Of a DNA stretch of 64,000 nucleotides, positions 938-63,996 are shown piece by piece; within the stretch, counting starts at the first letter, position 1; each line of letters opens with the position of its first letter. The DNA lies in the NCBI GenBank assembly GCA_030272155.1, contig CP126192.1, positions 7,660,501 to 7,724,500 of the forward strand, given 5' to 3'. The DNA comes from Tetradesmus obliquus (taxonomy: Eukaryota > Chlorophyta > Chlorophyceae > Sphaeropleales > Scenedesmaceae). A program made the translations under genes and the position numbers. The notes beneath the pieces were generated by a model. The model ran no database searches and was not told the origin of the DNA. It saw nothing but the letters and a program-made list of their open reading frames with translations.

Positions 938-3900
938 TCAACTGCCCTCCTGATCACGACCCAGCTTCGCCATTTCCGATCCCGGCGCACCAGCAGCTGC
1001 TGCTCCCGCTGCGGCTTCCACATCTGCTGCTGCTGCCTTGCCGCCTTCAACACCCTTCTCCTGCTGCCCCACCACCACCAGATCAATGCCCTGCACCTTG
1101 CAATCCGGGGTTCCACTATCCGCCGGACTGTCCATGCTGCCTCCTATCCGCGCTGCTGCAACCGGCAGCACATCATCATCAGGCCCTGCAGCAGCACCTA
1201 GCTCTGCTGCGCTGCTGCGCCGCATACTGCCGAGCCTGCCGCCGCTAGCTATCCTGAGGAAGCTCCCCACAACGCCGCTGCGCCAGCGCATCTGCGAGAC
1301 GTCAAAGAAGCCTCCAGCTGTCGCCGGCGATTCAAATCCGCGCGCGCCGGTCTCCGGGTGCCGCACGGACTGCAGGCGCAGCACGCCCCAGTTTGCTGCG
1401 GGGTTGACCTGTCCTGCAAGCCTGCTGCGGCCCTTTGCAGGAAAGGCGAAGCAGAAGACTACGCATATCACGTTGAAGGCTGCTCCCACGCCGTTTGGCA
1501 CGCCAACAAACCAGTCCTTCAAGGCCTGAAAGTAACAGCAGCAGCGCGCATAGACAGGAGACAGCGGCAGTGGTGAGGGTGAGGCGCCAGAGCAGATAAG
1601 GGGCCGGCAGCCTACTGCTATGATGGCATGATGCTGGACAGCCGTGCCTGCGTGTACAGCCCACTTGGAGCGCCAGGAGCCTTCGGGCAGGGGGGGGGGG
1701 GGGGGGGGGCTTCTGGACCAGCATTGCTTGCAGGTGAACGGTTGCATTTACCATGTCTAAACCTGTCATATTACTACATACTACGCACACAGCAATCAGG
1801 GCCGACTGGCTTGCTGTAGTGTACGAAATTTAGAAACGAGTCCTGCAAGCCATTGATACGGAACTGTTACCACCAGAAGCAGAATGTAACTGCATATAGA
1901 AGGACAGAGCTGCATGCTAGAGTAGTAGGGGCAGCAGCAGCAACCTTCGCACCATGCCGTATGCGAACCAGAGGGTGCCGTTGATGACGTTCATGCAGCA
2001 CAGCGGCCAGTGCAGGCTGGAGGAGTCGCGCTGCGCCACCACCTTTGCGAGCGAGGTGAGCGGCGCTGCGTAGTAAATCGCCAAAATAGCTACGCATGTC
2101 GAGCCCCTGCAGGTGCAACATCAGAAGGGGAAAGAAGGTTAGGGAATGCTAGATGCCATCACCTTGGCCAGTGAAGTGAGTGGCGCTGCGTAGTAAATCG
2201 CCAGGATGGCTACACAGGTTGAGCCCCTGCAGTTGCAATAGCGGCAGAGTGTCTTCAGTGCTGGCGTGTCCAGCTTGGCAGCCAGGCCATGCTGCACTAG
2301 GTACGAAAGTTCTAGGTCTCGACTCAGCAAACAGGCTGCAAGCCACTTGAAGCAGCAGGCTAGTACATGCAGCAACACAACACGTGCGCTGCAGTGTTCA
2401 GAACCCCTGCCATGCCATGCATGCGCTCAGTCAGCATCTGTGCAGCCCCCTGCTACTGGAGGCTCACCAGAGTGTCCTAAGTGCTGGCGTGTCAAGCTTA
2501 GCAGCCAGGCCATGCTGCACTAGGTACAAAAGTTCAAGTCTAGACTACAGCAACAGGCTGCAAGCCTCTTGCAGCAACAGGTAAGTACATGCTGCTGCTG
2601 GCTCACCAGAGTGTCTTTAGTCCTGGCGTGTCCAGCTTGGCAGCCTGGCTGACTAGCCCCACCACGAAGAACAGCATCACTGCGCCTAGAAAGATGTTGC
2701 GCAGCGTGTCTTGAGCCTATATGTTGAACGAAAGGCGGTTAGCAGCGGAGGAAAGGAGGGACAACAGTGAGCGATGTTGGCGTGAAAAAAGAGACAAGGT
2801 GTTGGCTGCTATGTGGAATGGCAGGGCTGCTGAAAGTGCTCGGGTTTTTGTTGAGCTGAAAAGATATAAGCAGACTCTGCCCCAAGCAAGCAGAAGAAAG
2901 CTTGTGCTGACCCGCTAGCAGCTTTCTGCCTCCTCGAATCCTGGCAACCTTTGAAGTTCCACCGCGCAAGCAACAACCATATGCGCCACAGACATGCATG
3001 ACCAGACTAACCGCACCTGCTCTTTGGAGAACTTGTAGCAGGTGAGCACGTAGAACATGCCAAACATCAGCCCTGGTATGTTGCCAAAGTAGATGTACCA
3101 ATCCAGCCCAACATAGCCGTAGATGATCCAGGAGAAGCAGTTTGCCGCCATGGCGATGAAAGGCAGCACATTCAGCTCCTGCAAGGAGTAGGCAATTCAG
3201 CAAGCAAGACAGTAACCAAAGTACGAGTGAGGCAACACTACTTGCTCAAGTGCACAAGTGTTGGTGGTTGTTTTGCCGTGGCAGCGGCTTGTTTGACTTG
3301 GAAACTGCACGGCAGAGCAGGCATGTTGTCGCGTGCCGGTTGCTGCCGTACTTGTTCACTTTGCAGTCCACACAGCAGCAGGTTGAACTGCTGTCATTGC
3401 TGCTGACACCAAACACAGCCGCACGCACGAGTATCTGGGTGCTTACAATGCCAGCTGCTGCATGCTTGCTGATTCTCGTGCTGTCTGCAGCTGTTGATGA
3501 GTCATGCTGCTGCTGCTGCTGCTGTTGTTGTTGACGCCGCTGTTGCTGCTGCTGCAAACTTGAGCTGATGTGTGCTGGCCACCCACCCCTACGCTCTTCT
3601 TCCTGTTAACTTCAAGGACGGCCTGCGAGAACCAGCAAACAGCAGCAGCAGAAGAAATATCATCAGTTTACCAGAGCTTGATAGCTGCTGGTCGCAACAT
3701 CGTGTCACCATGCAGGCACCTGCTATGCGGCATTGTGTGCTTTCCTGCAAAGTGCTGCCTGAAAAAGCTGTAAGCAGGCTATTGAGGACTGCATGGGTTC
3801 TAGCCTGCTGCTCTTCCTGCAAGACAGAACTGCGAGACAGAACTTTGGCAAGCCCAAGCATGCTGCGTCTGCTGCCGCCCATTGTGCTGTCAAGTGCTGC

Positions 3901-4007
3901 ATATCCTTGCACACCTTGAGTGGGGAGCTGAACAGCACAAAGGCGATGCCCACCCCCAGCCCAGGGCACACATGCTTCAGCAGGATGTCTGTCGTTGATA
4001 TAGGCAT
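938..4007 (-). CDS. SWEET: SWEET (MtN3/saliva) sugar transporter
   Basis: A bidirectional sugar uniporter of the SWEET family, expected in a membrane with two three-helix bundles. Five exons chain in phase: 4007-3915, 3178-3017, 2716-2607, 2106-1953 and 1525-938, about 368 residues. Exon 1 gives helix 1 (VGIAFVLFSSPLK). Exon 2 carries the hallmark ELNVLPFIAMAANC followed by SWIIYGY. Exon 3 is a helix (NIFLGAVMLFFVVGLV). Exon 4 carries ILAIYYAAPLTSLAKV and then INGTLWFAYGM. Exon 5 carries VGVPNGVGAAFNVICVV, the usual last helix, then a long Ala/Gly-rich tail. About a dozen residues normally found between helix 1 and the LPF motif are missing, so a micro-exon in the 3914-3179 intron is likely. 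Two introns contain partial copies of exons 3 and 4. The intron 1952-1526 holds a run of about 20 G (plus strand, near 1690-1709). The family assignment is secure; the exact N-terminal structure is not. Confidence 0.85.
2155..2233 (-). repeat. Partial copy of SWEET exon 4 start, with acceptor
   Basis: It repeats the intron end, CTGCAG acceptor and first part of exon 4 (same frame reads CVAILAIYYAAPLTSLAKV), and lies just upstream of the true exon at 2106-1953. It stops before the NGTLWFAYG part and has no donor of its own, so it is probably not a usable full exon. Confidence 0.8.
2240..2565 (-). repeat. Two copies of SWEET exon 3 end, with donor
   Basis: Segments at about 2249-2345 and 2462-2565 repeat the 3' end of exon 3 (AAKLDTP followed by LKTL). 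They lie downstream of the true exon (2716-2607) in the following intron, with a period of about 220 bases. The 2462-2565 copy keeps the CTCTG/GTGAGCC donor; the 2249-2345 copy has lost it. The start of exon 3 is not copied. Confidence 0.75.
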
Positions 4008-5420
4008 GGCTGCCTGATGATTGCTGAGCCAGCAGCCTCAGCTGCAGGCACCTGCCCAGCCCTGATGCCTGCAGGCAAAATGTTGATGGCAGTCAACCCA
4101 GCAGGACGCATCAGCTGCTGCCTAAGGGTTACTTGCAGCACCAAGACCAATATCTAAGTGCTAAGCAACCGTGTTGCAACGGCATGCAGGCGTTATGGCC
4201 TTTTGGATTGTGGGCTCCAAGGGTTGCTGCTGCTGCTGCCAGGGCCACTCACCTCAGGCGCTGCTAGCCAGCCTGGCTAAAAGACCAGCAATGCCCTAAC
4301 CACGGCTCTTACAGAGCAATGTTTGTGGTGTTGGTAAAGGAGTACGGCGTTGCTGGCTGTGACGAGCACCAAACTCTTGGTTATTCGGTAGCGCTTCCAG
4401 TCCGAAACACCTGACGTCAACGTCGCACAGATAGGATAAGTATCGGTTTGAAACACTGGATTGTAAGTAGGGTGGCTGTAAGAACGCTCAAGTTGTGTGC
4501 TGGTGCGGTGGGTGTTGCAAGGGTGCAATCCATGTTCTGGCTGCGTCGCTTTCAAGTTTTAGACCACGCCCGAAATGTGCTTGCTGCCATTTGGACATCG
4601 ACTCTCGCAGGAATAGGTGCAGATGCCCTGCCGAGTACGAACACCTTGCTTTTCAAACTAAGCGTCCTTGGACGCGTTGGACCCTGGTTTCAGAGAGAAC
4701 TCACACGTTGATCCACGCCACGCATTACTCTTCTCAGTTGAATATCCACACAAGCTGCAGCCAAGCGCCTGCAACGCCTGGTGCTCTGCTGCTGTGCGCA
4801 AGGCTGCACCAACAGCTACTGCCCAACAAAATCTGCAGAGACAGATAGCTGTCGCTGCTGCCTGCAGGCATCTTACTTGCATAAACGCACTCACATGCAC
4901 CTTGCTGGCCACCAGTTGCCTTGGCGGCAACTGCACACTGCCTGACAACAAAAGAGAGAACCTCGCTACACACCGCACACGCGTGCAGGAAAGCAGCTGA
5001 ACTGCAGCAGCTGCTACAGCCACCAGCTCAACCCGCAGCGCTGCTGCTCCTGCTGCTGCAGCAACAAGAGAACCCTCCACACGCTGCTCCCCTCGCAGGC
5101 TAGCAATGCCCCCTGATGAGAGGCCTTGCTAGACATGCACGAGCTGAGCAGCTCTACCTTCTTCTGCTGCAGCAGCCATCGCACCCACACCACACATGCT
5201 GCACGTTGCTCGACGCCCTGCATCTCGCAGCACTGCTGACACAGCCGCGCAACACTCGCAGGAAACGCCGCACAACCGCTGCGAATGCTCGTGCTCAGCC
5301 AACATGCGCCATGACAGCTCCGCAGCTGCACACGCTGCCGCACAAGCCTCGCCACTGTACCATCGGCTGCCAGTTGGTCAAACTGCGGTCAAACAGTTGG
5401 TCAAACTGTGGTCAAGCTGC
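4008..5420. other. Intergenic: SWEET upstream and ATP synthase 3' region
   Basis: This lies between the SWEET start and the ATP synthase stop codon, both on the minus strand. Frames here are short and lack family features. A short array of GTCAAA-type units at 5376-5416 sits directly below the ATP synthase stop. No clear promoter was recognised. Confidence 0.4.
5376..5416. repeat. Short GTCAAA-type array
   Basis: Four spaced units of the form GGTCAAAC/GGTCAAGC, directly 3' of the ATP synthase stop. The same unit recurs at 15428-15640. Confidence 0.6.
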
Positions 5421-7715
5421 TTACACCTTCACGCCCTCTGGCAGCACGCGCTTGAGCACCTCGCTGCTGATCTTCTCTGCCTGTGCGTCCAGGCTCTTCA
5501 GCAGGCCCTCGCTCTCCTTCTCCATGGCAGCGATGGCAGACTCGGTCTCGCGGGTGACCTGGCGGCAGCAGCAGAGGGAGAAGTGAGCGTGTGTCAGCAG
5601 ACTATTTGGGGACGCAAGCAGCGGCCGTGCAGCACACTTGTGCCGAATAATGGCAAGGAACAAGTGGGAGGCATCTGAGGCATGTCACTTGCAGTGCGGC
5701 CAACCGCAGCGCATGCCATGTTGAAGCAGTCACTGCTGCGTCCGCTGGCTACAGCCCTGCTGCTTCCACACGCGACAACCTCCCAACACCACACAGCAAG
5801 CCATCACAACAGATAGCACCGCCGCGCACCTTCATCTTGGCGTCGTTGTACACCTTGTCCAGCTCGCTCTGCTTCTCGCTCTTCTTGGCGTTGACCATGG
5901 CGGACACCTCGCTGCGGGCATCCTTGATCAGCTTCTCAGCCTCAGCAGTGAGCGCGGCCAGCTCAGAGCTGCCGTCCTTCACGCTGCCCAGCTGGTTGCG
6001 CAGCAGCGCGTCACGCTCGTCCAGCACCTGCGATGCGGCGGCAGCAGCAGCAAGCATTTGATGAGTAAGACCACATTGTGTGCGTGAAAAAGCAGCTGAT
6101 GCCCGCAAAGGAGAGCGAAAATTGCCCTCGGGAGCACCTACAAAGCGGCGGCAGCAACAGCAGCATGTTGATCAGCTTCTCAGCCTCAGCGGTGAGCGCA
6201 GCCAGCTCAGAGCTGCCGTCCTCCACGCTGCCCAGCTGGTTGCGCAGCAGCGCATCACGCTCGTCCAGCACCTGTCATGCGGCAGCAGCAGCAGCAGCAG
6301 ATGCCGGAGATGTGTTGGGTCGTGTTGGTGTGTGAGAGAAGCAGCTGATACAGAGCTACTGCTGGTGTTGACCAACACGTGGCGTGATACACGCACTGAC
6401 CCGCTGTGCTGAGGATGACTTCCCGCGTCTCAGGTGCCAGGTAAGCCTGCCTGGCATGTGCAATTGCTGTTAATTCTTCTGCCGGCTTCACTGCTGCCTT
6501 CTGTGCTGTCTACTCTTGTCGCCGCTTCACGCACGGCACACCCACTCCAAGCAAAGCCGATGCTGCTGTGTCGCAAGCACTGACAGCTGGCCGCACGGGA
6601 CACACGCGCAACCACAGCAAACGGCTGCAGCAACAGTGCACGGCTTTTGCAGGATGACCTGAAGCCTTATTTTATTGCTGCTGCTGAGGTGCAAGGTGAC
6701 AACAGCTGCCAAACGGCTCCACCTTCTATACTTATTGTTGAGCACGGTCCCTTGCGGGACAGCTGCTGCCACATCCAGCTGCATGTTCTCCATCCAACTG
6801 CGCAACTGCCGCACCCCAACATGCGGGTGCTGATCACATCAGGCATTGCCCGATGTACAGCCTGTGCAGCATCATAACCGCCGCTGCTGCTCACCTTGCC
6901 GACGGGGGTGAACCAGAACTTCTCCAGGAACACCATCAGCAGCAGGATCTCGCCGGCCATGATGGGCAGCGTCAGGTTGAAGTCGAACAGCTTACCGGCC
7001 TCGGCAGCTGCGGGCATGGCCATGATGATGTTGGCCACTGCAGTAGAAGAAGGATACAAACAAATGAGTTGCAGGCAGGCAGGCAGGCAGCAGGTCAGAA
7101 GGCAGGCACTGTGCCGGACAGTGTTGAGGGTGGGGGGTAAAGGACTGCTGAGGGGGTGCTGACGGCATCCAGATGAGAACTTGCTATGTTGACTAGCGGT
7201 TATTTGCCACGATGAACAGCTGCAGGCTGCAAGCTGGCAGATGCATTAGGATTAGGGGCCCAAGCTGCTGCAGGTCCCTGATGCTGCCCCAGCATGGTGC
7301 TGCTTATGGTCGAATTGTCTGCGTCAACGATCGCTGACAATCTGCGTAGCTGAGGAGCTGCAGGGCCTGCTCATTGCTGCGAGGGCTTTTGGACAGCGTG
7401 CGAAGGGGTGCTGCAGCTCGCCGGCAGCAAACTCCTGAATCCTGCCTCCGGCCTGGCTCTTTCATTGGCTGAAGCTGTAACAATCTAAACAATTGAAGGA
7501 TCCTTGCTGCTGTCTGCGCCTGAAGGCCTGCCTGGTGCAGCCATGCCCTGCCAATGACTCTGACCTGCGGTTGCGATGGCTGGCTTCACAACAGCTGGCA
7601 GCTGCTGCTTCTGGCCGCTGGCACGGACCACCATGCGCACAGCGCGGGTGGGCTGTGCAGGCCTAGCAGTGCTAGCGCCTGCGAAGCACTTGGTGCGTGA
7701 CAGCATGCAAGCCAT
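5421..7715 (-). CDS. ATPG: Chloroplast ATP synthase CF0 subunit II (b')
   Basis: Nuclear gene for the b' stalk subunit, which with subunit b forms the peripheral stalk joining CF0 in the thylakoid to CF1. Four exons chain in phase: 7715-7565, 7037-6895, 6027-5830 and 5558-5421, giving 209 residues, the normal family length. Exon 1 (MACMLSRTKCFAGASTARP, then a basic stretch) is a chloroplast transit peptide. Exon 2 holds the import/processing region and the one membrane helix (FDFNLTLPIMAGEILLLMVF, then WFTPVGK). Exon 3 starts with VLDERDALLRNQLGSV and continues as the long charged helix. Exon 4 ends in EVLKRVLPEGVKV. The start was chosen because the next upstream Met lies before a stretch lacking transit-peptide character. 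Intron 2 contains a copy of the start of exon 3. The family match is clear and unbroken. Confidence 0.95.
6028..6270 (-). repeat. Tandem copy of ATP synthase exon 3 start within intron 2
   Basis: A unit of about 243 bases (intron end plus first 97 bases of exon 3) is repeated in tandem. The extra exon piece is at 6270-6172; it has an acceptor-like AG and reads VLDERDALLRNQLGSVEDG in the same frame, differing from the true exon by a Lys-to-Glu change and a few silent sites. It stops at KLIN and has no donor. Mostly silent differences suggest either recent origin or gene conversion. Confidence 0.85.
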
Positions 7716-9379: not shown

Positions 9380-9885
9380 CGCCATCATCCGTTCATCTGC
9401 ATCGCCGCCCACGCTTGTTGTACACATGTGTAACTCCACCAGCCGCCTGCTCCTACAACACCGCTTGGTCCACGCCATGCCTCACCATTAGGAAAGTTGA
9501 ACCCATGGAACGTGGGAGAATACCACAACAACACGAGCAACCCTGGCATACCTGTGGACGCTGAACAAATCATGCTCCTCAACAGGCCACTACCCTCACC
9601 ACGAGGACAGCACACACCACACCGGCAATCACTCATTCATCTGCATAGCTGCCACCCGCCAATTGTGCTGCTCCACCAGCCGCCTCAGCCGCTCCTGCTC
9701 CTGCAGCACCGCCTTTTCCACTCCGTGGCTGACCATGTGCATCTCAAGCGCCTAGATCAGCTGCGCCCCTTGCGTATTATCACTATCCCCATCAGCACCC
9801 AGCGCATGGATGCTGCCTTTGCGGGTGTGCCATTGCGCAGGGCTGAAACACGGGGCACACCCAAGACGATGGCTTGGCGCAGCGC
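9380..9885 (-). repeat. Two degraded copies of the last exon end of the 9886-18233 gene
   Basis: Segments at about 9630-9830 and 9380-9480 repeat the 3' end of the last exon (about 9886-10080), including the stretch coding for LERLVEQHNKR-like sequence and the region around the stop. They lie downstream in the 3' flank and are increasingly diverged, the outer one only partial. Confidence 0.7.
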
Positions 9886-11114: not shown

Positions 11115-11146
<32 letters not shown>

Positions 11147-18239: not shown

Positions 18240-19219
18240 CACTAGCTGTCACATGCGCGTCTGCTTGCAACGAACAGCCCACGGTGTACGCTGTAAGGTC
18301 CTGCCAGCACCGTGGGGCAGCTGCATGCAACGCACGCACCTGCTTGCATGACTGCTTGATATGAACGATTTCGGAACTCTAGGATTACGCGAACTCAGCT
18401 TCTAACGGAGGCGGGGCGTCGAACAGAGTTGCGAGGGGGCAAGAAGTGTCCTCGACATTGCATCAAGATGCTGCATTGCGGCCGACGTACGTGTGCAAAC
18501 GTCTTGTAAACACGAGCATGTGCCAAATCAGGCGCTGTTTGTGCCCTGATGCATGTAAAAAAAGCACCTGCCCTTTGGACGTCCAAGGTAAGGTTCAGGC
18601 TTCAAAATTTGCAGATTTCTGTCAGCAAGTATATTCGCGTGTTGCGGCAGCGCTGGCTAGCCAACCAGTACGAGATACAGCATGATGTATTCGACGCCAG
18701 CTCATAAATATTTATATGGGCTTCGCATCCCCTCGGTGGACCAGAGCAAACCAGTGCTTGCACCCCTAAGCGGCCTTCATGGCATGGATGCATGCAGGAT
18801 GCCATGCAGATGCCTCCATTCATTTAATATTATGAGTTGCAGTAAGACATTGCAGTGAAGCATAATGCAGCACAATGCGTACTCACATGGCTAGATGGCG
18901 CCTCCCAAAGCACCGTGGCTGAACCTCTGATAGTCATCTGCGGCTTCTCCTCCATTTCCCAGTCAGCAGTTTAAACCAGGTGACACCTTTTGCTGCACAC
19001 AACACTGCAATTACCACTGTTTGTGCTGTGCCACCACCTGTGCGGGTCTACAAGCACAAATTGGTTAAACCAAGGGCCAGTTGCCGCTTGCAAGCTGGCC
19101 TGCTGCTGTGGTCGTATTGGAAGGACACACCCTTTCAAACAAGCACATCATCACAAAACTCACGCGACCGCACATGCACCCATCAGCACTGCAACACAGC
19201 CAGCCAGTTCAGAACTCCA
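18240..19219. other. Intergenic between the Ala/Gln-rich gene and the ZGPAT-like gene
   Basis: AT-richer sequence with no convincing frames. It should contain the 5' UTR and promoter of the gene to its left and the 3' UTR of the gene to its right, both minus-strand. Confidence 0.4.
18706..18719 (-). promoter_or_regulatory. Candidate TATA box
   Basis: Read on the minus strand it is CATATAAATATTT, a canonical TATA form, about 480 bases above the candidate first ATG (18233) of the Ala/Gln-rich gene and inside an AT-richer intergenic stretch. Position suits a promoter with a long 5' UTR; it could be chance. Confidence 0.35.
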
Positions 19220-19266
19220 TCCATTTCTGTGTAGCCTCCCTACCAGCCACTGCCTTGTGAAGCTGC
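19220..19266 (-). repeat. Copy of the last exon end of the ZGPAT-like gene
   Basis: It repeats the final part of the last exon (19331-19385, coding VAGREATKKWMKF and the stop) about 120 bases downstream in the 3' flank, with several substitutions. Confidence 0.75.
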
Positions 19267-19330: not shown

Positions 19331-23111
<3,781 letters not shown>

Positions 23112-25169: not shown

Positions 25170-26763
25170 TCACCGCGCTGCTGTTGCCGTGTTTGGTGTC
25201 AGAGCCTTCAGCCGCCTGCCAATACTCAGGCTGAGACTAAACAAATTTGCAAAGTCAACAGCAGCACCGGCATGCGGCATAGTCAACATCTGCACCCCAT
25301 CGCTGCTGCTGCTGCTGCCATCGCTGTCGGTACCACTGCCGCTGCTGCTGCTGCCAGTTGTGGTTGTTTTCAAGCAGCCTGCTCCTCTGCAAGGGCACGC
25401 GTCTGCTGCTGCATTGCAGTACCAGGGGCGCAGGCCGTACAGCTGAGTCAGCAGCTGCACCTTCTTGAACTGCACGTCGCGCCAGGTGTCTGTCGGGCCA
25501 ACGATGCCTTTAGTATCGCCTGCAGTGAAACAAGCACGCCAGAAAATGCATCAAACCTTGAGTGCATGTAGCAGTGCTGCATCTTCAACTCAGCATCATG
25601 CCTCCAAACTTGGGCATGCATCGTTGGCCTTTGAAAAGAACTTGGTGGCACAACACCCCCACTAAGTTTGAAGGCTTTCGAATGGTTGCCTCACACAATC
25701 TGCTGCTGGCATCCCGCTGATACAGAGTCTGTCGAGCCACACAACCAACAGGCCAATGAAATCCAACAAATGCCCCTCAGCATTAGCACACGCATGACAA
25801 TCACACCTGCTAGATTCAAGCACGCCTCACCTGAGTTGGCATTCCATGCCCACCAGAACCAGCTCACTGTTGCGCCCTGCACCTCCAGCCCCCTTAGATA
25901 TTCCGCCAGATCTTGCAGGAATGTAACATCCACGTCAGCAATGCTGGCAAAGTCGCCAGCTGCTGCTGCTGGTGTTGAGGTAGGGTTTTGGGGTGATGGC
26001 GGCTGGGGTTTACCGTGGTCCGGAACCCCAAACTCTCCCAGGATGACTGCCATGCGGTCAAGGGGCTGCATCTGCAGCGGTAACAGAAGCATAAACATGA
26101 GGAAGCTGTTGTCAAAGCATGCAAGCTTCATGTGGTGAGTTGCGGGACACCAAGCTCGCCCAGGATAGGTGCCATGCGGTCAAGGCGCTGCATCTGCAGT
26201 GGTGACAGTGAGATTGCATTTGCAGCACAACATGCACTGGCTCAGTCGTAGGTGAACCCTTACATGTCACATTGACTGTGAGTATATGTGACAGGTAGAA
26301 GGTGTGGAGCCCATGGTGAGAAGGGGTGCCGCCCTGGCCACACACACCCTCTAGGCCATAACTTACCCAGGAGCTGCAAAACTGCCTGGCTAGTCTCTCA
26401 CTCACTCAATCACTGGCCATTCACATTTCAGCCCAGGTGCCTGTCCAGCATGTGGCACCCACATATGCAAAGCATGCTCAGCATATGCCATGCGCTGCTG
26501 CAAGTTTCAACAAAGTTGGCTGCTCATAGCAAAGCATGCTCATCATATGCCATGCGCCAGGTCCCTGATGAGTGCTTTCAGCCCGAAGCTGAGGTCCATG
26601 CCATGCATTGCTTGTCAAGTGCACTGCTGCTCTTGTCGTGATCCATGAATGCTAGTATGTACTCACGTCTGAGCCCAGGTCGCGTCCCAGTACTTTGAGC
26701 CCGAAGCTGAGGTCCAGCCGCGCAAACAGGCTGGCCCTGGACTGAGTGTCAACTCCCAGCCCT

Positions 26764-30600: not shown

Positions 30601-31063
30601 CTCACAGCTGAGGTGGGCGGCAGCTCGGCGTCATCATAGGCCTGCAGCATTACAGTGAGAGGAAGAATACATGTGCATTGTCAGAAGCATGAGGGCAGCA
30701 TAATGATTATGCGTCATCTTAGGCCTGCAGGTTTTTAACTAGTATGAGGGCAGCTTTTAGTCCGATGTTTAACGATTGACGCCTGCCATCATCAAGTTGA
30801 CGTTCTGCTGTGGGTCAAATAGGCATGGCTGCTGGCTCAGCAGGCATCGAACAGCAGTGTTCAACATCAACAGCTCCGGCTGCTGCTGCCACTTCCACTG
30901 CCACCGCCGCCGCTGACGCTGACGCTGCATCTGCTACTGCTGCTGCTGCTGCTACTGCTGGTGACTCACCCACAAGCCATCTACACTGGGACTCTCAGTC
31001 TCTCAGCCAAACCAATTGATGCCGTGCAGCCTGCCGGCCTGCCTGCCTGCCGGCCTGCCGGCC

Positions 31064-42785: not shown

Positions 42786-45700
42786 ATGTTGCAGCAGCAG
42801 CTACACAGGAGCTCGTTGTCCCAGTGTCACAAGGCGAGCCCGCTGGGTATCCATGCAGGCCTCGGTTCGCCTGTACTGGCTGCCAAATGGCACAAAGTAG
42901 TCTCCAGTCCTCTACAGATCCCGGCACACAGCTACTGTCGCAGCAGGTGCGTTGGACTCTACAGCACCAGAGCAGCAGCAGAGAAGCACCCTTGCCACCA
43001 TGGTGCATGGCATGCACTATGCATGCACGCACAATTCAACGTTAATTATGCTTTGTGTTCAACAAATACTTTAGTATATGTGTAGCAGAGGGAACCCATG
43101 TAGCATATGCATGCCCTATGACCCCAACGTCTGGCCGCAGCAGCTGCTGTGCAGGAGTGGCTGCGTCCCTCTGCATGCAGTGACGGCGAACGCCTCGAAC
43201 TGAGAATGTGGTGAAACCTGCACTGACTTTTCATCAGCTCTAGGCATCCACCGTCTACGGCGTAGGCAGCAACCCCTTCTCTTAGCCTGGAAGGCCGCTG
43301 TTTGCCGTCGACACTCATACTTTCCTGCCTGTTCTTTTGCACCATTCATCTTTCCTGCAACTCAGTCATGCTGCTTTCCTGCAAGCCCCCTGCAGCTGCT
43401 TCTCTGGGCCAGGCCGGTGTGTGCCGTGTTTGGTGATGTTGACCGCCTATGTCTGCGTCTATCGTGCTGCTTTCCTGCAGGCCGCTGCAGCTACCCATCC
43501 AGGCCAGGCGAAAAGGCGGCTGGAGCGACAACAGCAGCAGCAGCAGCAGGCGCAGCAGGGACGACAAGTCCTTCCGCCTTAAGTTCAACCAGATAGATGT
43601 CAGCCTAGCAGAGGACCAGATGTGGCGGCTGGCGCTGCCTTTTGCAGCTCTGTTTGGGCTCGCAGTATTCATTGGTGGGTGTGCTGTCAAGTTGCAATAG
43701 CGATGTTAATTAGTGTTGTTCAGTCGTTCAGGGTGTCAGCACCTGCACTTATATTTGCCATGTAGAGCTGCAGGACCATAAGAGAAGCGTGGTCATTTGC
43801 AACTGGTCTTGGGATGACGTTGCCGTTTGCGTCAACTTTGCGCACATGGCTCCTGTTTATTTGCATCATGCCTGCGTCCCTGCCTGCACTTTCATCCGTA
43901 CCCTACCTGGCATTACCCACCTTTCAGGCCAGCTGGTTGTTAGCATCACCGTGTCGGCGCAGCATTCTCAGCTGGCGCGCTTGCCTTCACCAGGCTGCTG
44001 CTGCCGCCTTTTATGATGCCTGTAAACATCTGCCTGCCTGCACCCTGATTGTCCTGCAGGCCCCCTAGTCGTCGGCATCACCGTCTCAGCCATCGCAGTC
44101 AGGGCAGCATTCTCAGCAGAAGCCCTGGTCTTCACCAGCCTGCTGCTGCCTCCTTGTTGATGCTATGCTATTCATTTGTATGCTGCCTGCCTGCCTGCTT
44201 GCCGGCCTGCCAGCCTGCAGGTCCTCTGGTTGTTGGCATCACCGTGTCAGCGCAGTCGGCACAGCATTCTCAGCTGGCGCACTGGCTTTCACCAGGCTGC
44301 TGCTGCCTCCTTTCTCACAACCCCATACATGCGTGCCTGCCTGCCCGCCTGCATTCTGATTGTCCTGCAACCTGCCTGCCTGCAGGCCCTCTAGTTGTTG
44401 GCATCACCGTGTCAGCCATTGTAGTCGGGGCAGCATTCTTAGCAGGAGCTCTCGCCTTCACCAGCCTGCTGCTGCCTCCTTTTCCGTGCTTTATGCTATT
44501 CACTTATTATATGTTCCTGCCTGCGTGCCTGCCTGCCTGTCTGCAGGTCCTTTGGTTGTGGGCATCACTGTCTCAGCCATTGCAGTTGGGGCAGCATTCT
44601 CAGCAGGAGCGCTGGCTTTCACGAGTTTGCTGCTGCCGCTGATCGTGTTGAGCGGCATCGGCGGCCTGATGAGCTTTGGCGTCGTTGCTGCATTGGGGGC
44701 TGCGCTGGTGGTGCCAAAGATGATCTTCTCCGCGCTGTCGCTGGTGAGTTACCAGCTTTCTATGCATATGTGTTTTGGAGAGTGCTGTGCTTACCTGATG
44801 TTCTCACATTGCTGTCATCAAATGTGTAAAAGGATTTTAAGAGCTGCAGCTGTTGGTTGTCCTGTGTGGCATTGGCGGCTTGATGAGCTTCGGGGTTGTT
44901 GCTGCGCTTGGGGCGGCGCTTGTAGTGCCCAAGATGATTTTCTCGGCACTGTCACTGGTGAGTTGCTAGCTTGCACGTGTCCTTTTAGACTGCCCTGTTT
45001 TTGTTGTATTCATATGCCTGGCTCAAAAACTGGGTAGAAACGCTAGTTTTGCGCAAAACCCGTGAAAATGCGCGGCATCCCGTGAAAATGCGCGGCATCA
45101 GGGGCTTAATGAGCTTTGGCGTTGTTGCTGCGATGGGGGCAGCGCTGGTGGTGCCAAAGATGATCCTCTCCGTGCTGTTGCTGTTGAGTGTTGGGCGCGT
45201 TGCAGGGTACATGTGCTGAAATTGTAGGGTTGAGGTTTATTTGTTTGTGGTGAGGCGTTTTTGCACGGCGAACAGTGCACAAGTATGGGGACAGCACTGC
45301 AGGATGAGCTGGTTGTGCTCAGCGGCATTGGGGGCTTGTTGAAGTTTGGTTGGTGCAGTGGCTTTGTAAGGGCAACGCTGGTGGTGCCCAAGATGATGTT
45401 TCCGGCGCTGTCACTGGTAAGTACTGAGGGTCACAGGTGTTGAATGTAGGGTTTTTTTGTGGTGTTGCATGCGTTGAGGCGTTTTTCTGAGAACACTGCA
45501 CCGTTTGACTGCGCTGGTGGCGCCAAAGACGATATCTCTTCGCTGTCGCCTGGTGTGCGCGCTGAGGCAGGGAGATGTCTCTGTGCAAACATGTCTTGGA
45601 ACAGCAGTGATGCAATAGCTGATGTGCCTGTACTGCCGAAACTGGTATCTTTTCACGCAGGGCCGTACTGGAGTTGTGCAGAAGCCCGGGGCTGCATAGT

Positions 45701-46268: not shown

Positions 46269-46334
46269 ATGTTACTTGCAAGGGCAGATGAGAGGCGGCG
46301 CGTGGAGGAGTGGCAGCAGCAGCGCAAGCTGTAG
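46269..46334 (+). repeat. Copy of the coding end with its stop codon
   Basis: It repeats the last 60 bases of the gene (coding RRRVEEWQQQRKL and TAG) 105 bases downstream in the 3' UTR. Confidence 0.85.
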
Positions 46335-54804: not shown

Positions 54805-56103
54805 AATGACTGCTTGCCCTGCAATGGCGCTCGACTTGCACAGCTGCAGCCCAGCGCTTCACTCCTTCATCACTCCTTCAGCAGCTTCAGCTCCCCGCCT
54901 GCCTAAAAGACAAGAGGGTGCCTAGTTCACCTTGAATATCTGCTGGGCTACCTGCCTGCAGCGGCCTGACGGCTACCCTGCAGAGACTTAAGCCTGAAAA
55001 GCTGACCTGAGCGCTGCATACCATGCTTTTTCGAGTAAACAGCTGTTCATGCCTGCCTGCCTGTCCTGCAGCGGCCTGACGGCTACCCAGCAGAGATCAA
55101 AAGCCTCAACAGCTGGTCCGAGTACTGCGCAGTGGCCAGGGTCGCCACAGGCGCTGCATACTACGCTGCTGGTGCGAGGACAGTGCAGCAACGGCAGCAG
55201 TTGGAGTAGCTGCGCGAACTCGCAGCAGCAGCAGCAGCAGCGGTACTGCAACAGGATAGCGGCTGGTGGTTCTTTTTCTTGTGTCCCTCATGTGCTAGTC
55301 TGGCTTTACACTGTGACTGGGACACATTAGATGGCTAGGCACACAGGTGGTATATGCCTACGCTACTACTAGTAGCGGTTAGTAGTAGTAAACGTCTGTT
55401 TGTCCCGCCAACTGCCCTTCTGCTTGCCAGGCAAGTACGTGCTGCTGTACAGCGGCGATGGCAAAGTGACACTTGAGGGTGACGCCAGCGTCACTGCTGA
55501 GGGGCCTGGGCGGCTGGAGTTGAGCATCAAGCCGGCAGCAGGTGCGAGGCGCAAAAGGCAGGCATGCCTTACCTGCAGCAGTCAAAGCGGTAAGCTGGGG
55601 CCGGCACATGCTACATTTATGTGTGTAGCTTTTGTTGCATTTGCAGGTGCAGTCAACATGTGCTGATGTTTGAGCCGGCTTTACTTGCAAGCTCGCAGCA
55701 GGCGCAAGCAGCTGCACGAGACAAGCTTGCTGCTTGTCACTTGGGAGGAGATGACCAATGCACGCGGCAGCAGCCTGTAGTGAATCAAAGCACTTTTGAG
55801 CAAACGTTTTTGTGCAACCTTGCAATAGTAGGTAGGGGCGCACCTGGCATCCAATGTATAGGCAAGTACAGCATGGGTACAGCAGTCACCACAATAAGCA
55901 GCTAAGATTTGCCATGGTGAAAGTTTGGCTGTGGCTGCTGCTGCTGCTGTTCCTTGCTCCTGTTGCACAGGCTTTGCTGTTCGCATTGTGAGGACGATTG
56001 CGACCAACCCGGTGCGCAACATCAGCATTGTGCCTGCTGCAGCAGAGTTCAACTTTGCAGACACCCCCTACCAGGCCTCTTTTCTGGAGCTGGTGAAAGG
56101 TGC

Positions 56104-56167
<64 letters not shown>

Positions 56168-57950
56168 TTACTTGTGTGCTGGCATCCACCTCCTCATCAC
56201 TTGCGCCCATGCCACACGCTCTACGCTTTGCCAACAATAGCACATCAGGGCCTGTGTGCATTCAGCTGCAACACTTTACAACTTCCATAGATGGCAGCGC
56301 TCACCACACGTTGTTTTGCGATTGGATTGCTGTTGCAAACGCACACGAACAGGATTTGACGTGCTGCGCTTTGCCTGGTGGCAGCGCATCTGGGGCGACG
56401 CACGCAACCCTCAAATGCTGCGCAGCCTTGCCGATCGCGCCACGCCAGCTAGCGCAACCTACCTGGGCAAGGATGGTGTGTCATGGCAGGACATGGTGAC
56501 GCTGGCAAACCAGGTGACGGCATGACTATGTTTAACAAATGGCCTTTGACTGTATCATTTGTGGTCGGTGCATACATCGAAGTGTAAGCTACCTGGGCAA
56601 GGATGGTGTGAGCTGGCAGGACATAGTGGCCCTGGCCAACCAGGTGATGCACGATGAATGTTTGTTTCAATGGCTGGAACATGCTGTCGTGTTGCTTGAT
56701 GTGGCAGTTGAGTGCTGCCATTCAGCTGAGGGCACCTTAGTTCAAACTCCCCCTGGCTGCCACCAACAGCAACCCGTACGCCACTTTTGCTGCCGCCACT
56801 GCTGCTGCTACTGTTGCTGCTGCTGCTGCCACCGCCACGCAGGTTGGTGCTGACCCCTGGTTGAACCTTCCACTTGCTGCCACTGACAGCGACCCTTACG
56901 CCAACGCCATGGCCACCTATGTGGCACAAAATCTGGCACCTGAGCGCAGGTGAGTTGCCCTATGTTAAACCCTACATATTCAACCTGTTGTGGCTCATAC
57001 CATTTATGATGGTGCCAGGACCCACATGTAACTATCCTTTCTCAATTTGTAGCAGCCAGGAAGCTCCTGTCTGCGTGGCTGGTTTAATGTGGAAGCCAGC
57101 GCATCTCGAATCATTCCCGTATTGTGCCAGTTGTCACATATGACATGTGCAGTGCTGCTGCTGATCCGCTGTCTGCCTGCTGCAGGGTGTACATTGAGTA
57201 CGGCTTTGCTGCGCCCGGTTGGATGACTACTGAATACGTGAGTGTAAATGCGAGCACGGTCTTGCCTGCAATACGAACAACTTGTCCGCATATGCTTTGC
57301 ATGAGTCCAACACGCTCCCTGCTTGCTGCTGTTTTATTTGCTGACACCCCCAGTACCTGCCGCGTGAGTTTACAAAGCCCATTTACATCTGCTTCCCTGC
57401 TGCTGCCACCCCTACAACCCCCTCCTACTGCGCATGCACAGCCGACAAACCTGCTGCGCGTCGCCCGCATCTGGCGAGCCGCCTTTGCGGCAGCCGGCCT
57501 CGACAGCAAGCGAGTGGTGGTGGTGGCCACGTACGAAGTGCCTGCCTGGATCCCGTACCTGAGCAGCACTTTTGGCGCAAACATCAGCCAGGTGGACGCT
57601 GTTGCAGTTGTCGGCAGCTACGGTGAGTGACAAACCCCGCAGGGTTTCAGTACTTTGAAAGTGCTTGCCTGGATCCCGTATTTGAGCAGCACGTTTTGCG
57701 CCAACATTAGCCCAGTGGAGGCTGTGGCAGTGGTTGCCAGTTATGGTGAGTGCCAACGAGAGAGAGTTTTTAGAGGACAAGATTGTAAATGTGTGCCATC
57801 TGTCGGGCTGCTCTCCATCACTGCAGCCCCACCAGCCCGCACTGCAACATCAGCAACAACCGTACAGCCTTGTCCACTGCCCGCATCAAGTAGAGCGTGC
57901 GTGCACTGATTGTTCCCACATACACACGTGCACTAAGAACGCCCACCAGC

Positions 57951-58009: not shown

Positions 58010-59221
58010 AGGCTCTTACCGCTCCTGGAACTCCAACAGGCCCTGCTTCTACGAGTTCAGCAGCAACACCTTTGCGCAGGACCCCAAGAATGCAGGCATT
58101 GATCTAGACCGGGTGCTGCAGTTGGCTCGCAGCAGTGTGATCCATGCTGATGTACTGCACAACAGCTGGCACCAGCGGCTGAGGGCAATGGGCAAGCGCC
58201 TCATTGCCGTGCAAGGTGCGTTGGCCGGGAGTGTTCATCCACTGTTCAACAGAGTTGTTTGTCGAGCCTGGGTATTGTGAGTGGTCTGCAACTTTAGTTT
58301 GAGGTGTTGAGTTCTTTTCTCAGGCATCAAAAAAGGTGGGACTGAGTGCTGCAGCTGGCTTGCAGCAGCGTGATCTACTGGCATGGCATGCCGGCGTGCT
58401 GCACAACAGCTGGCACCAGCGGCTGAGGGCAATGGGCAAGCGCCTCATTGCGGTGCAAGGTGCGTTTCTTGACACACCGTGCTGACATGTTAAGCAGTGC
58501 TGTTAATGTACAGTTGGTGACAGTGAGATTGCAGTTTGCAGTTTGTTGTGCTCGAAGGTGTTATGGTGGTGTGCAGTCGTGCGGATGTAGCGTGAACACG
58601 CGTTTGCTGCTGTGCTGTTCAGAGATTTTTTGTGAGCTGTGTGTGCCATTCTTCCAGCCTAAGACTGTGTGCATCTAGTCCATCCGCAGCTTGGTTTGAA
58701 ACAACGCACAAACTTCAAATGCACCGTTTTCCGCCATGCAGGCGGCCCTGACAGGAGCCAGATGGCAGCTGCCTACTACAGCATGCGCCAGAACTACAAC
58801 AACATCCTGGGCTGCAAGTGAGTGACATGTCGCTACAATGCTCATGGGCTGCGGTGTGGCTTGTCAAGCCTTCCTGTTTTCAAAGGACCTTTGCCTGGCC
58901 AGCAGCAGTCATCTGCAGCTTATGCACACGTCTTGAGTGACACAAGTGCATTTGCAAAACGTAATAAACGATTGCGTGCTTCAGCTCTGCTGTAGACTAA
59001 CGTTCATCATAGGACTCAGGCAAACGTTTCGTGCCTTCATGTTGCAACTGAATCGCTGCTGCAGGAGCTACCCATGCACGCGCAGCGGCCTGTTCCCTCC
59101 CGCCAGCCCCAGCAGCATGACCTTTGCCTCAGAGGCAGAGCGCAATGCAACACTGGCGCAGTTCTGGCCACAGGCGCAAAATGAGTGGAGGCTCGACGAG
59201 CTGCTGATGCAGGTGCGCTGA
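53686..59221 (+). CDS. Secreted GH-A-like / carbohydrate-associated protein
   Basis: A secreted protein resembling the large group of bacterial and eukaryotic proteins with a beta-sandwich region followed by a GH-A-like barrel, often annotated as cellulose-binding; substrate unknown. Thirteen exons chain in phase (53686-53761, 54069-54160, 54465-54548, 55072-55171, 55431-55541, 55971-56099, 56353-56513, 56843-56949, 57186-57237, 57442-57622, 58012-58215, 58742-58817, 59065-59221), 509 residues. The start (ACCATGG context) opens a signal peptide MAGCHLDWLVVLLAVGI. Landmarks: GKYVLLYSGDGKVTLEG, NPVRNISIVPAAA, GFDVLRFAWWQRI, KDGVSWQDMVTLANQ, DPWLNLPLAATDSD, VYIEYGFAAPGW, RVVVVATYEVPAWIPYLSS, HNSWHQRLRAMGKRLIAVQG. 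In relatives the VYIEY stretch is usually followed by an Asn-Glu pair; here it reads GFAAPGW, so catalysis is doubtful. The end is unsure: the final CAG-GTGCGC may be a donor, with more exons beyond. Confidence 0.7.
53780..54068 (+). repeat. Intron with CAG tract at its start and CTG tract at its end
   Basis: Intron 1 (53762-54068) carries an interrupted (CAG)n at 53782-53828 just after the donor and (CTG)n at 54022-54066 ending at the acceptor. The two tracts are complementary in the RNA and could pair. Confidence 0.85.
54660..54806. repeat. (CTGC)n tetranucleotide tract
   Basis: About 145 bases of CTGC/TGCC units with a few interruptions, in an intron. Shorter runs of the same unit occur near 7075, 31040 and 44190. 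Confidence 0.9.
54957..55030 (+). repeat. Copy of exon 4 start
   Basis: It repeats CTGCAG, the codons for RPDGYPAE and further decayed exon sequence, about 110 bases upstream of exon 4 (55072). A stop interrupts it. Confidence 0.8.
56105..56166. repeat. (CAG)n tract after a donor
   Basis: About 20 sense-strand CAG units beginning within eight bases of the donor at 56100. Confidence 0.9.
56585..56647 (+). repeat. Copy of exon 7 end and donor
   Basis: It reads YLGKDGVSWQDIVALANQ where the true exon end (56460-56513) reads YLGKDGVSWQDMVTLANQ, and keeps a GTGATG donor. It lies 130 bases downstream. Confidence 0.85.
56740..56800 (+). repeat. Copy of the exon 8 start
   Basis: It repeats the stretch coding LPLAATDSDPYA in weakened form, about 140 bases upstream of the true one in exon 8 (56843-56949). 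Confidence 0.6.
57651..57750 (+). repeat. Copy of exon 10 end and donor
   Basis: It reads AWIPYLSSTFCANISPVEAV against AWIPYLSSTFGANISQVDAV in the true exon, with a GTGAGTG donor, 125 bases downstream. Confidence 0.85.
57952..58011. repeat. (CTG)n tract before an acceptor
   Basis: About 19 sense-strand CTG units running into the CTGCAG acceptor of exon 11 (58012). Confidence 0.9.
58352..58463 (+). repeat. Copy of exon 11 end and donor
   Basis: It repeats the stretch coding HNSWHQRLRAMGKRLIAVQ and the GGTGCG donor almost perfectly, about 245 bases downstream. Confidence 0.85.
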
Positions 59222-59861
59222 TCTTCGGAAAAGTGTGTGTCGTTTGGCAGCGGTGTGTTGTTGTTGGGACGCTGCCTCAGAGGCGGAGCGCAACGCGACG
59301 CTGGCGCAGTTCTGGCCACAAGCGCAAAATGAGTGGAGGCTGGATGAGCTGCTGATGCAGGTGGGTATATTGTTACGTTTCAATATGTTATGTTATGTTA
59401 CAGGCTCGACTCCTGGTTGCAGATTTGCAGTCCTCACCGGTGCACACACTCCCAATCCTGCAGCGCTGACAACGCCACATGCTCAAAGGACGTGTTGCTG
59501 CTGCAGCCACACACATGTTGTAGTACAGCGCCTGGCGCATGCACAGCAGTCAAGCCTCCGCAGAAGAGTGCAGGCAAATGCCATTTGTCGGACACCACGT
59601 CCCTGCTGCATGTTGCATTTCGACTGCAGTCACAAATCACATTCAAGATCCAAAGAATGCTGAATACGTTTGCAGCAAGCACTGGGAAATGCCTGCAACA
59701 GTAGTCCTACACACCCAATGCAAACTGAAAGCAACGCCTAGCATGACTCGTCAAGATGATCTACACACAAACACACTGCCACAACAACATGCTACTGGCC
59801 TCTGCCGCGTGCCAAACACTCATGTGTGCCTGGTTGAAGTCTACAGCTCTCAGACCTGCTC
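59222..59861. other. Gap between convergent genes
   Basis: It holds the exon copy at 59268-59366 and the 3' UTRs of the two converging genes. No further gene is evident, though extra exons of the secreted protein could lie here. Confidence 0.4.
59268..59366 (+). repeat. Copy of exon 13 end
   Basis: It repeats ASEAERNATLAQFWPQAQNE and WRLDELLMQ with a GTGGGT donor, 150 bases downstream of the true copy. A conserved donor in both suggests that 59214 may be a real splice site rather than the gene end. Confidence 0.85.
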
Positions 59862-62179: not shown

Positions 62180-62458
62180 CTGCAGATGCATGGCAGAAAC
62201 AGTGCAGGCGCATCAGCAGGTCAGACATGCTGCTCTCTGGAACCATGCGCAGCCGCGGCGCTGCTTGTGTGCGCTCAAAGGCTGCCGCCAAATTTCTATG
62301 TGCTCAGAACACGGAGCAGACCTGCAAATCAAATCTTCGATGCCATTTATGAATCTAGTTTGAATCGTTCAGCGAAAAGCGGCTGCACAAAACACGCCAG
62401 GTGGCAGTGAGTCGTCCTGCAGCTGCAGGCCTGATGACCTGGCTGAAGAGGCTTACCT

Positions 62459-62770: not shown

Positions 62771-62779
62771 CCATGCTGC

Positions 62780-62791
62780 TGTATTTATAGC
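62780..62791 (-). promoter_or_regulatory. TATA box
   Basis: Read on the minus strand it is GGCTATAAATACA, a canonical TATA element, placed just above the proposed 5' UTR exon. Confidence 0.6.
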
Positions 62792-63560
62792 CTGGAAATC
62801 TAGAAAGACTTGCAAACGTGTTGCCCTACGTCATTTACCCTACGCGGAGGCGTCCACGCGTGTGCATGCTGACGCGTACATTCGCGCCAACTTGTCCGAC
62901 ACACGCAGCACACCCTGTGTCCAGCAAAATTCTGTGTTTTTGACATCTCAAACCTACTTCAAACATGCTGCAGTTGCTTGACAGAATCAAAAACTGCCTG
63001 AGATGGTAACCCTAGGACGGGTCTGCATCTTCAGGCCTGTAACTGTCCAGCAACGTCTAAAGCAGCAGGCTGTTGTGTGGCTGCATGAGGCAGACACCCT
63101 AAGATAATCGTCCTATGTGCTTGAGCCTCTTGAGATTGTGTGCAGCGCACACTGCAAATGCATTTGGTGGTTGGTGAGCTGCTGCTCAGCTGCAGCTGCT
63201 GTGTGGTGCTTGATGTGCATGATGAGTCATCAACATCACCCTAGCACAAGTTCAACGGCCGTTCGTGCACTTGTACAAACGCGTGTGTGTGCACCGTACA
63301 CCGCATGGCTGTGTGATAACTGCAGAGCGTGGCTCAACCAGGCTGGCAAGCCAACATGTGTAAAAACACATTTACATGTGTGTTGCTGTGCTGCCAGCGG
63401 CTGTGCGTTGTGGTGTTTATTGATGTTTGCGCTTGGTGCATGGGCTGGCAAATGTGCAGTAATAACTATGGGAGCTAGCGTGCAGTGGGAGATGACAATG
63501 ATAGCATACAAATGATGTCTGTCCCATGAGCTAGCAGCTCATTGGTGTTGTGCCGCTTGC
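62792..63560. other. Intergenic
   Basis: No convincing frame on either strand. The plus-strand gene at the right edge may have its promoter or early exons here. Confidence 0.4.
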
Positions 63561-63564
63561 AGGC

Positions 63565-63610
63565 CAAGCTGCGAGGACCCATGACCCTGCAGCACACACG
63601 CGAGCTTGCT
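63565..63610 (+). repeat. Upstream copy of an exon start
   Basis: It repeats the CAG acceptor and AAGCTGCG-AG-CCCA-CAGCACA of the exon at 63685, 120 bases upstream, with an altered reading. Confidence 0.7.
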
Positions 63611-63684
63611 TGCTGCATGGGCTTGCTGACTGTATGCGTTTGCTGAAGCATGACCATGCATGTTTGCTGCCTTGCCGGCTGCAG

Positions 63685-63996
63685 GTCAAGCTGCGTGAGC
63701 CCACCACCAAGCAGCACATGCTGGACCACCTTTCGCGATGTGAGAAGGCCGGCGCTGCTGCGGCTGCTGCTGCTCTGCTGCTGCTGTTGCTGCTGTTGCT
63801 GCATGCACATATACTATCAGCATGAGCTGCTGGTGATCAAACCACGGCAATGTGCCTGTATAATATACACCCTTGCAGCCGGCACGTCTGTTTCAGCCAG
63901 CAGCATGTATGCTGGAGCACACATGCAGATGCTGACACAGGTGCTTGAGCACATGTTTGACAGCGCCCTGGCATGCGAGGAGAGCGCAGCACACAG
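63685..63996 (+). CDS. Partial gene at right edge, unknown
   Basis: Two exons, 63685-63739 and 63879-63996, join in phase and read VKLREPTTKQHMLDHLSR, then GTSVSASSMYAGAHMQM and LTQVLEHMFDSALACEESA, with a donor at the window edge. The helical character is ordinary; no family is recognised. Earlier and later exons are unknown. Confidence 0.5.

Follow-up and report, generated by a model that had tools for sequence, protein, structure and literature searches.

The stretch of Tetradesmus obliquus DNA analysed here (the window: 64,000 nucleotides, positions 7660501-7724500 of contig C2 in genome G000, an assembly of 104.66 Mb in 17 contigs) carries genes for a SWEET protein, the ATP synthase b' subunit AtpG, a ZGPAT-like protein, a GH5 protein, an ELG1-like protein, the membrane protein OEZ86_001110, a GBP protein and a secreted protein, and these genes are accompanied by partial copies of their own exon edges, which are the subject of this study. 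A Pfam scan of the window supported the SWEET, ATP-synt_B, G-patch and GBP genes and gave no family for the secreted protein; in Rfam the window had no match. The DNA that we sampled amounts to 344 kb, of which 5 kb is N, and comprises the window plus 14 sites of 20 kb at positions of our choosing (10, then 4 more). Exons were predicted with a purpose-written, self-trained gene finder, which yielded 625 uncurated exons with 113,571 coding bp. Earlier settings gave absurd or merged models, and a single final model set was used throughout, in which copies are sometimes labelled as exons. Two annotated T. obliquus proteins, P0121 (OEZ86_001110, matching the membrane-protein gene of the window) and P0135 (an entry for the secreted protein), fit most exon positions of the two window genes concerned.

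The copies follow a simple rule of polarity: those upstream of an exon contain the acceptor and the exon start, and those downstream contain the exon end and the donor. This rule had been proposed in a first-pass annotation made from the letters of the window, and it was borne out by 193 polar vs 13 anti-polar matches after filtering (108 vs 6 when counted as exon-by-class rows). Most of the copies listed in that annotation were recovered by self-BLAST of the window, which found the SWEET, AtpG, ZGPAT, GH5, membrane-protein and secreted-protein pairs. The ELG1 and GBP copies are present, but they are weak and required a more sensitive search, and a GH5 copy placed at 29039 was found by neither method. 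To say that every main gene carries copies was an overstatement, as the models at 15914-18233 and 59862-63804 are without a listed copy.

To determine how common such copies are, we used as probes 321 exons of at least 90 bp from gene models of at least 300 bp, excluding low-complexity exons, and searched up to 2 kb away. A direct copy was found for 121 of the 321 exons (274 matches), while the same search returned as controls only 1 inverted match and 1 match in the flanks of another exon, a density beyond chance. Without a low-complexity filter there were 175 inverted matches; applying the filter, to 321 of the exons, left 1. In the window alone 24 of 58 exons have a direct copy, and individual sites range from 1/26 exons (L010) to 13/16 (L018). 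Local repeat pairs showed the same bias, with 50 direct vs 2 inverted in the window and 160 vs 1 in ten sampled 20-kb sites. Both polarity and density hold across the sampled genome. For two exon-and-copy stretches searched against the whole genome, no locus other than the original one was matched. Exon-edge copies are confirmed as real and as recurrent across the genome.

Before classification, exon models covered by the match of a longer exon were dropped (12 of the 121 models, 30 matches). The 243 filtered matches consist of 101 end-downstream, 92 start-upstream, 11 start-downstream, 2 end-upstream, 35 interior and 2 whole-exon matches. Without the filter the 273 matches divide into 104 end-downstream, 92 start-upstream, 13 start-downstream, 13 end-upstream, 38 interior and 13 whole-exon matches, which puts polar against anti-polar at 196:26. 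The copies are thus partial, as first described, but the absolute claim that they are never complete exons falls with the whole copies (2/243 filtered, 13/273 unfiltered). The 48 rows of the window include 30 polar, 4 anti-polar, 7 interior and 7 whole. Its 4 anti-polar rows begin at the short exon models 28155, 44060, 44850 and 45303, which look like copies themselves; for the membrane-protein models this is supported because P0121 holds each segment once. On our reading, copies called as exons by the gene finder account for many of the anti-polar and whole-exon rows. The copies also prefer exons: purely noncoding loci made up 5/36 at an identity of at least 93%, vs 43% under random placement of the same geometries, 4/72 vs 38% at 85-93% identity, and 10/73 vs 28% below 85%. 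Decay should carry little weight in the exon preference of the young pairs.

Exons and exon-edge copies in the window. Positions are those of the window; the last column gives the supporting model, scan or match where reported.
Position	Strand	Feature	Basis
1953..2106	-	SWEET exon (PF03083), start copied	gene model, Pfam
2155..2238	-	SWEET upstream copy: 12 bp of intron end, acceptor and exon start; 85% identity; holds AAGGTG	self-BLAST pair 2035-2118 / 2155-2238
2224..2373	-	downstream copy of exon end and flank; like 2447-2595 and 2607-2649	self-BLAST
2447..2595	-	further copy of the exon end copied in 2224..2373	self-BLAST
5830..6027	-	AtpG (ATP synthase b') exon	gene model, Pfam, protein relatives
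6168..6296	-	AtpG upstream copy: exon start and acceptor; 94.6% identity	self-BLAST pair 5924-6052
9629..9829	-	downstream copy of last-exon end to stop codon, 9.6-15.4 kb gene	
19213..19266	-	end of the ZGPAT terminal exon, copied past the stop codon	
20243..20318	-	upstream copy, start of exon 19689-20179	
20478..20608	-	ZGPAT exon (G-patch PF01585), four start copies upstream	gene model, Pfam
20657..20991	-	array of four copies (intron end, acceptor and exon start), spacing ~91-107 bp	self-BLAST pairs span 20562-20999
21201..21302	-	downstream copy: end of exon 21562-21808 and donor	
26143..26208	-	GH5 upstream copy: start of exon 25831-26071 and acceptor	
28155..28236	-	GH5 downstream copy: end of exon 28304-28457 and GT	
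28304..28457	-	GH5 exon, both edges copied, each on its proper side	
28514..28842	-	GH5 array: three upstream exon-start copies, unit ~123-126 bp	self-BLAST pairs span 28391-28849
30970..31043	-	GH5 downstream copy: end of exon 31144-31272 and donor	
31412..32133	-	GH5 5' part: local copy array, unit ~121-134 bp	self-BLAST pairs span 31412-32133
36802..36832	-	ELG1-like gene: end of exon 36934-37060, copied downstream over a short length	sensitive search, vs 36928-36958, 31 bp, 90%
43953..44481	+	OEZ86_001110 (membrane protein): exon-start copy array upstream of true exon	self-BLAST pairs span 43953-44637
44547..44743	+	OEZ86_001110: true exon	segments single in P0121
44843..45422	+	OEZ86_001110: three arrayed downstream copies, exon end and donor	self-BLAST pairs span 44629-45422
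46275..46334	+	OEZ86_001110: copy of terminal exon end, 93%; homology ends exactly at the stop codon	
49416..49458	+	GBP gene (PF02263) downstream copy: end of exon 49108-49296 and donor	sensitive search, vs 49262-49304, 43 bp, 81%
54948..55017	+	secreted protein upstream copy: start of exon 55072-55171 and acceptor	
56586..56647	+	secreted protein downstream copy: exon end and donor	self-BLAST pair 56451/56581
57659..57756	+	secreted protein downstream copy: exon end and donor	self-BLAST pair 57536/57659
58340..58466	+	secreted protein downstream copy: exon end and donor, 11-bp insertion vs exon	self-BLAST pair 58107/58340
59273..59363	+	secreted protein downstream copy: exon end and GTG; mismatches 7/7 at third codon positions	self-BLAST pair 59125/59273

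Differences between exons and copies bear the stamp of coding sequence. The mismatch at codon positions 1, 2 and 3 was 0.062, 0.053 and 0.188 between exon and copy, and 0.079, 0.078 and 0.190 between two intronic copies. Across 202 copies we counted 766 synonymous and 514 nonsynonymous changes relative to the exon, where random placement gives 351 and 929, and the copies have gained 14 stops vs 34 under random placement. With the mutation spectrum taken from noncoding columns, omega was 0.25 (0.21-0.29) for exon-copy pairs and 0.33 (0.26-0.41) for copy-copy pairs. A branch test on 39 triples, from which 22 three-state sites were excluded, gave an omega of 0.09 (0.03-0.20) for the exon branch (60 synonymous and 15 nonsynonymous changes) and of 0.37 (0.29-0.48) for the two copy branches jointly (141 and 143). 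We reason that a copy free since its birth from its own exon should show an exon-copy omega of at least 0.5 and a copy-branch omega of 1.0. The values of 0.25, 0.33 and 0.37 rule out this simple neutral model, and we regard them as conservative, given that similarity detection has no synonymous bias and frame errors raise omega. Copies modelled past stop codons, which are untranslatable, have a similar omega of 0.24 (n=10, with 24 synonymous and 16 nonsynonymous changes, some of the stop calls being gene-finder guesses). The synonymous divergence of the copies peaks at 0.20-0.25, and none of the 104 copies of at least 20 codons is identical to its exon. Gaps are frameshifting in 47 cases and in-frame in 8, and omega is 0.39 in gapped vs 0.20 in gapless copies, which indicates that many copies are decaying.

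A single copy was present in 71 of 115 families, tandem arrays occur at 47 loci, and the largest arrays reach 10 copies. The offset between successive copies has a median of 132 bp and lies at 120-139 bp in 76/199 cases. Between the exon and its nearest copy the median gap is 79 bp, and only 4 of the 115 families have a gap below 40 bp. In the case of start-type copies, a possible reason for this lower limit is that the true acceptor must keep its branch point and pyrimidine tract; if the copies stem from repair, short mismatched tails would be trimmed. A fixed unit length, of nucleosome or Okazaki size, was rejected, since the sum T+S was no tighter than with shuffled T and S (spread no larger than observed in 1960/2000).

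The first-pass annotation had offered a tandem duplication spanning one exon/intron boundary. This explains the polarity and fits the 47 tandem loci, but appears to fall short as the whole story: plain tandem duplication requires the spacer to equal the outer flank, and the outer intron flank is recognisably duplicated (score above the 95% control) in just 77/196 polar matches and not in 119/196, while the differences are mostly synonymous. The flank was recognisable in 17/40 polar matches with an exon identity of at least 95%, 30/70 at 90-95%, 16/49 at 85-90% and 14/37 at lower identity. Among 119 non-redundant spaced pairs there was no mean anchored extension (1.008 vs 1.031; 0.983 vs 1.188), and extension exceeded all six controls in 13 and 14 of them. 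When 32 young spaced pairs were inspected by eye, the similarity stopped within 15 bp past the splice site or at the stop codon in 21 and reached 17-26 bp in 6, with 5 left unclassed. When age was disregarded, 73 pairs crossed the junction, reaching a median of 18 bp into the intron (quartiles 6 and 61) and at most 15 bp in 36 of them. Where intron parts do match, 18.8% of the aligned bases differ, which is similar to the 0.188 at third codon positions and implies that the two were copied together; the other flanks seem either never to have been shared or to have been lost through larger changes.

In a broader form this explanation remains a realistic, if doubtful, candidate. It would have the copies arise, very frequently, by self-templated local tandem duplication on the same chromatid, whether by slippage, by paired nicks or by joining through polymerase theta, with polarity following from geometry and purifying selection, introns diverging faster, and exchange between exon and copy preserving the coding look. 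One unit laid over one boundary yields exactly the observed polarity; the tandem loci, the co-duplicated flanks and the clustered offsets agree with it, and the array at 3200-3760 of site L008 favours it locally. Tandem and partially tandem duplications are also among the insertions described for rice in the relevant passage of PMC7407515. On the other side stand the low omega values, unexpected if the copies had arisen from the neighbouring exon and been free thereafter and, in our argument, not attainable by exon-limited gene conversion as the sole force, which cannot push omega below 0.5. Identical copies are too few, young pairs are seldom noncoding only, and the behaviour of T+S, no tighter than for independent T and S, speaks against a fixed unit.

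Some arrays outside the window deserve mention in their own right. Large arrays of exon-start copies (L022+L023, 16300-17450; 5 copies in the family count) and of exon-end copies (L024+L025, 9900-11520; 10 copies) were observed. At 17326-17967 of L012+L013 there are ~20 tandem 32-bp units in which an acceptor-like run leads straight into a donor-like one (cctttcag followed by gtgagt), forming an array of back-to-back splice sites in which two compared 259-bp stretches are identical. An exon that we take to be ClpP-like has its end in a 118-bp tandem array (L002+L003, 19320-19859); in two 186-bp stretches of this array the intron parts are identical and each of the five mismatches is synonymous, with two adjacent glycine codons altered together.

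Within the window, in-frame 66-bp tandem repeats lie in predicted coding sequence at 60935-61042, inside a predicted coding exon, and at 12386-12531; in them we see the duplication habit of the exon edges at work in coding DNA. Very long stretches of alanine, glutamine and serine mark the predicted proteins encoded at 9629-18233, 33396-41424 and 59862-60526, and a run of G, ~20 long, is located at ~1690-1709.

Splice dinucleotides are retained in most copies (GT in 77/104, AG in 82/92; the exon models' own scored sites have 97/106 and 89/96), which points to an origin from unspliced sequence; mRNA as the template was rejected on this ground. The outer splice sites score nearly as in normal exons (donor 6.1 vs 6.3; acceptor 5.6 vs 7.0). 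It could thus be supposed, as the first-pass annotation did, that the copies tune splicing or act as poison exons, or that they are alternative exons or decoy or spare sites under selection, and the coding signature would agree with such a role. The best inner site, though weak, is in frame in 50/103 end-type and 36/86 start-type copies, where chance predicts one third, and of the inner sites scoring above 4, 16/41 and 4/11 could give a cassette that is open and in frame. CAG codons lying in frame in the copied exon part may be the source of this frame excess. In addition, the T. obliquus AtpG entry P0001 holds 15 exon-start residues, VLDERDALLRNQLGS, twice (compared with window 6167-6271 and 5827-6027); they occur once in P0002, a transcript-derived relative, as if the gene model behind P0001 had taken the intronic copy for an exon. 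We nevertheless consider a splicing role improbable. At the inner edges no partner splice site scored above control (acceptor 3.6 vs 4.2, donor 1.5 vs 3.0), and both P0121 and P0135 leave the copies out, with each segment present once. The 14 copies with gained stops, the frameshifts in 47/55 gaps and the similar omega of the copies past stop codons add to this. Nor do the copies resemble complete duplicated cassettes or mutually exclusive exons, given that whole copies number 2/243 and inner sites do not exceed control.

Three further explanations were considered. Intron gain through internal tandem duplication with activation of AGGT is known from Drosophila (in the part of PMC2891723 concerned), and the SWEET copy has its AAGGTG; yet AGGT occurs in 14/112 copied segments vs 44/400 control exon segments, and the copies adjoin existing introns and leave the exons uninterrupted, which makes this highly improbable. 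Mobile intron-like elements with long target-site duplications would likewise leave direct repeats around a spacer, but the spacers vary in length and 3/3 of those searched genome-wide had no match beyond their own locus, the first of them also holding a further local copy; we give this very little credence. An assembly artefact, by haplotype stitching or transcript-guided gap filling, might explain why the synonymous differences look like allelic divergence. Such an origin is scarcely credible in view of the arrays of up to 10 copies and of two entries whose source strains are unnamed: P0129, a 2,249-bp contig of other source, runs from the exon through the intron into the copy (98.7% on the protein level over window 44360-45034), and P0127, from a third source, has the same segment twice in one frame. 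The assembly of UTEX 3031 (Scenedesmus obliquus) is moreover titled gapless and telomere-to-telomere, and the same title, of Biondi et al. 2024 as cited in PMC12636532, speaks of a phased diploid genome with diverged haplotypes and significant heterozygosity. PMC12636532 itself also treats the strain as diploid and says that one of its chromosomes is homozygous. The present contig set is presumably one UTEX 3031 haplotype.

Our preferred interpretation, held tentatively and at somewhat less than even confidence, is that the copies are scars of double-strand-break repair in which a diverged homologue served as template, rather than a splicing device. Beneath the pattern, the polarity, the exon preference, the spacing and the coding signature, all of which were observed, we infer a series of repair steps and a diverged template. 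A double-strand break would occur within an exon, and one end would invade the homologous exon on the diverged homologous chromosome, exons being the main stretch able to pair. Synthesis would then copy the rest of the exon and tens of bp of the other chromosome's intron. Since this intron tail could not anneal to the other end, synthesis-dependent strand annealing would fail and the ends would be joined directly. Extension of the left end would produce exon end and donor, a stretch of intron, and exon end and donor again, and extension of the right end would produce the mirror-image start-type copy. Arrays would grow later by ordinary unequal exchange, selection would remove events that upset the message, and surviving copies would decay. 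Failed annealing of this kind predicts direct and close copies, and the copies are indeed direct (274 vs 1 inverted) and close (median offset 132 bp); proximity, polarity, partial copies, unmatched intron flanks and mainly synonymous exon differences would follow as well. The diverged template in particular would account for the exon preference, the unmatched flanks, the synonymous differences and the absence of identical copies. The secreted protein of the window differs from P0135 in 14/490 residues, and with an omega near 0.1 this gives, as a rough estimate, a synonymous divergence of the order of 0.1-0.3. Possibly, though here we are more doubtful, the alga is vegetatively diploid and hybrid-like, with diverged haplotypes that pair only in exons; aborted tracts joined end to end would then build outward arrays of allelic exon fragments, and introns would be a record of such exchanges and grow by them.

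Several observations weigh against break repair on a diverged homologue. The diverged template is deduced indirectly, from the sequence of one haplotype, in which the two loci examined occur once, and the identity with UTEX 3031 is itself presumed. The co-duplicated flanks (77/196) and the 47 tandem arrays fit self-templating equally well. Similarity often, but not always, ends sharply at the splice site, so that a sharp edge is not general. Losses of splice dinucleotides are somewhat above what a short free phase predicts, frameshifting gaps predominate, and synonymous counts are over-dispersed (index 1.93). Between the first two units of the L008 array there are 2 base differences in the exon, each of them non-synonymous, and far more in the intron, a sign of conversion confined to the exon. 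HELQ/POLQ-type sequences (PF20470 and PF21099) were matched at two loci, on contigs C4 and C9, with one PF21099 match below the cut-off, and a loss of the helicase is thus neither needed nor indicated. Self-templated duplication and repair on a diverged homologue may both be acting.

If break repair on a diverged homologue is indeed the source, introns hold thousands of repair records (extrapolating from the 121/321 sampled exons), and a single genome would show how recombination between diverged homologues turns out, for which crosses or mutants are the usual source. It would also give a tangible way in which introns grow and arrays form. Even if the copies are self-templated, their presence at over one third of the sampled longer exons makes this genome well suited to testing ideas on duplication mutagenesis and the speed of intron turnover. 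The copies call for caution in gene prediction, as one AtpG entry seems to include a copy as an exon, and intronic exon-like sequence should not be taken for alternative exons.

In the open-licence literature, polar exon-edge copies appeared in no title or abstract opening among the matches listed, and an earlier description may exist. Arrays of similar exon-derived segments are familiar from mutually exclusive tandem exons of the Dscam type; unlike those, the T. obliquus copies cover part of an exon and miss one of its splice sites, and two annotated proteins do not contain them. Intron gain by tandem duplication, to which the work of Hellsten et al. 2011 reportedly also belongs, invites a second comparison. 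As in the cases treated in the relevant part of Lehmann et al. 2010 (PMC2891723), exonic sequence is duplicated locally within genes, but in T. obliquus no new intron appears in the exon and AGGT is not enriched. Direct repeats near splice sites have been described by Rogers and Bendich 2025; as given in the section concerned of PMC11782384 these measure 4-30 bp and lie at both intron ends, whereas ours are longer and derive from one exon edge at one end. The patch-mediated insertions of rice (Vaughn and Bennetzen 2014, as presented in PMC7407515) are likewise short, local and direct duplications, some of them not strictly tandem, and the passage that presents them mentions no exon-edge polarity. 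In C. elegans helq-1 mutants, according to the portion of PMC8654963 that deals with them, a broken end that has been extended but fails to anneal is joined by polymerase theta, giving tandem duplications of ~100 bp to 10 kb. There the template is given as a sister homologue, the median is ~1 kb and the helicase is lost, whereas the copies in T. obliquus are tied to exon edges, show coding-type differences and occur in a genome with two HELQ/POLQ-type loci. Both sets of duplications are direct and adjacent, with sizes from ~100 bp, and in both the copied tract would correspond to the extended end.

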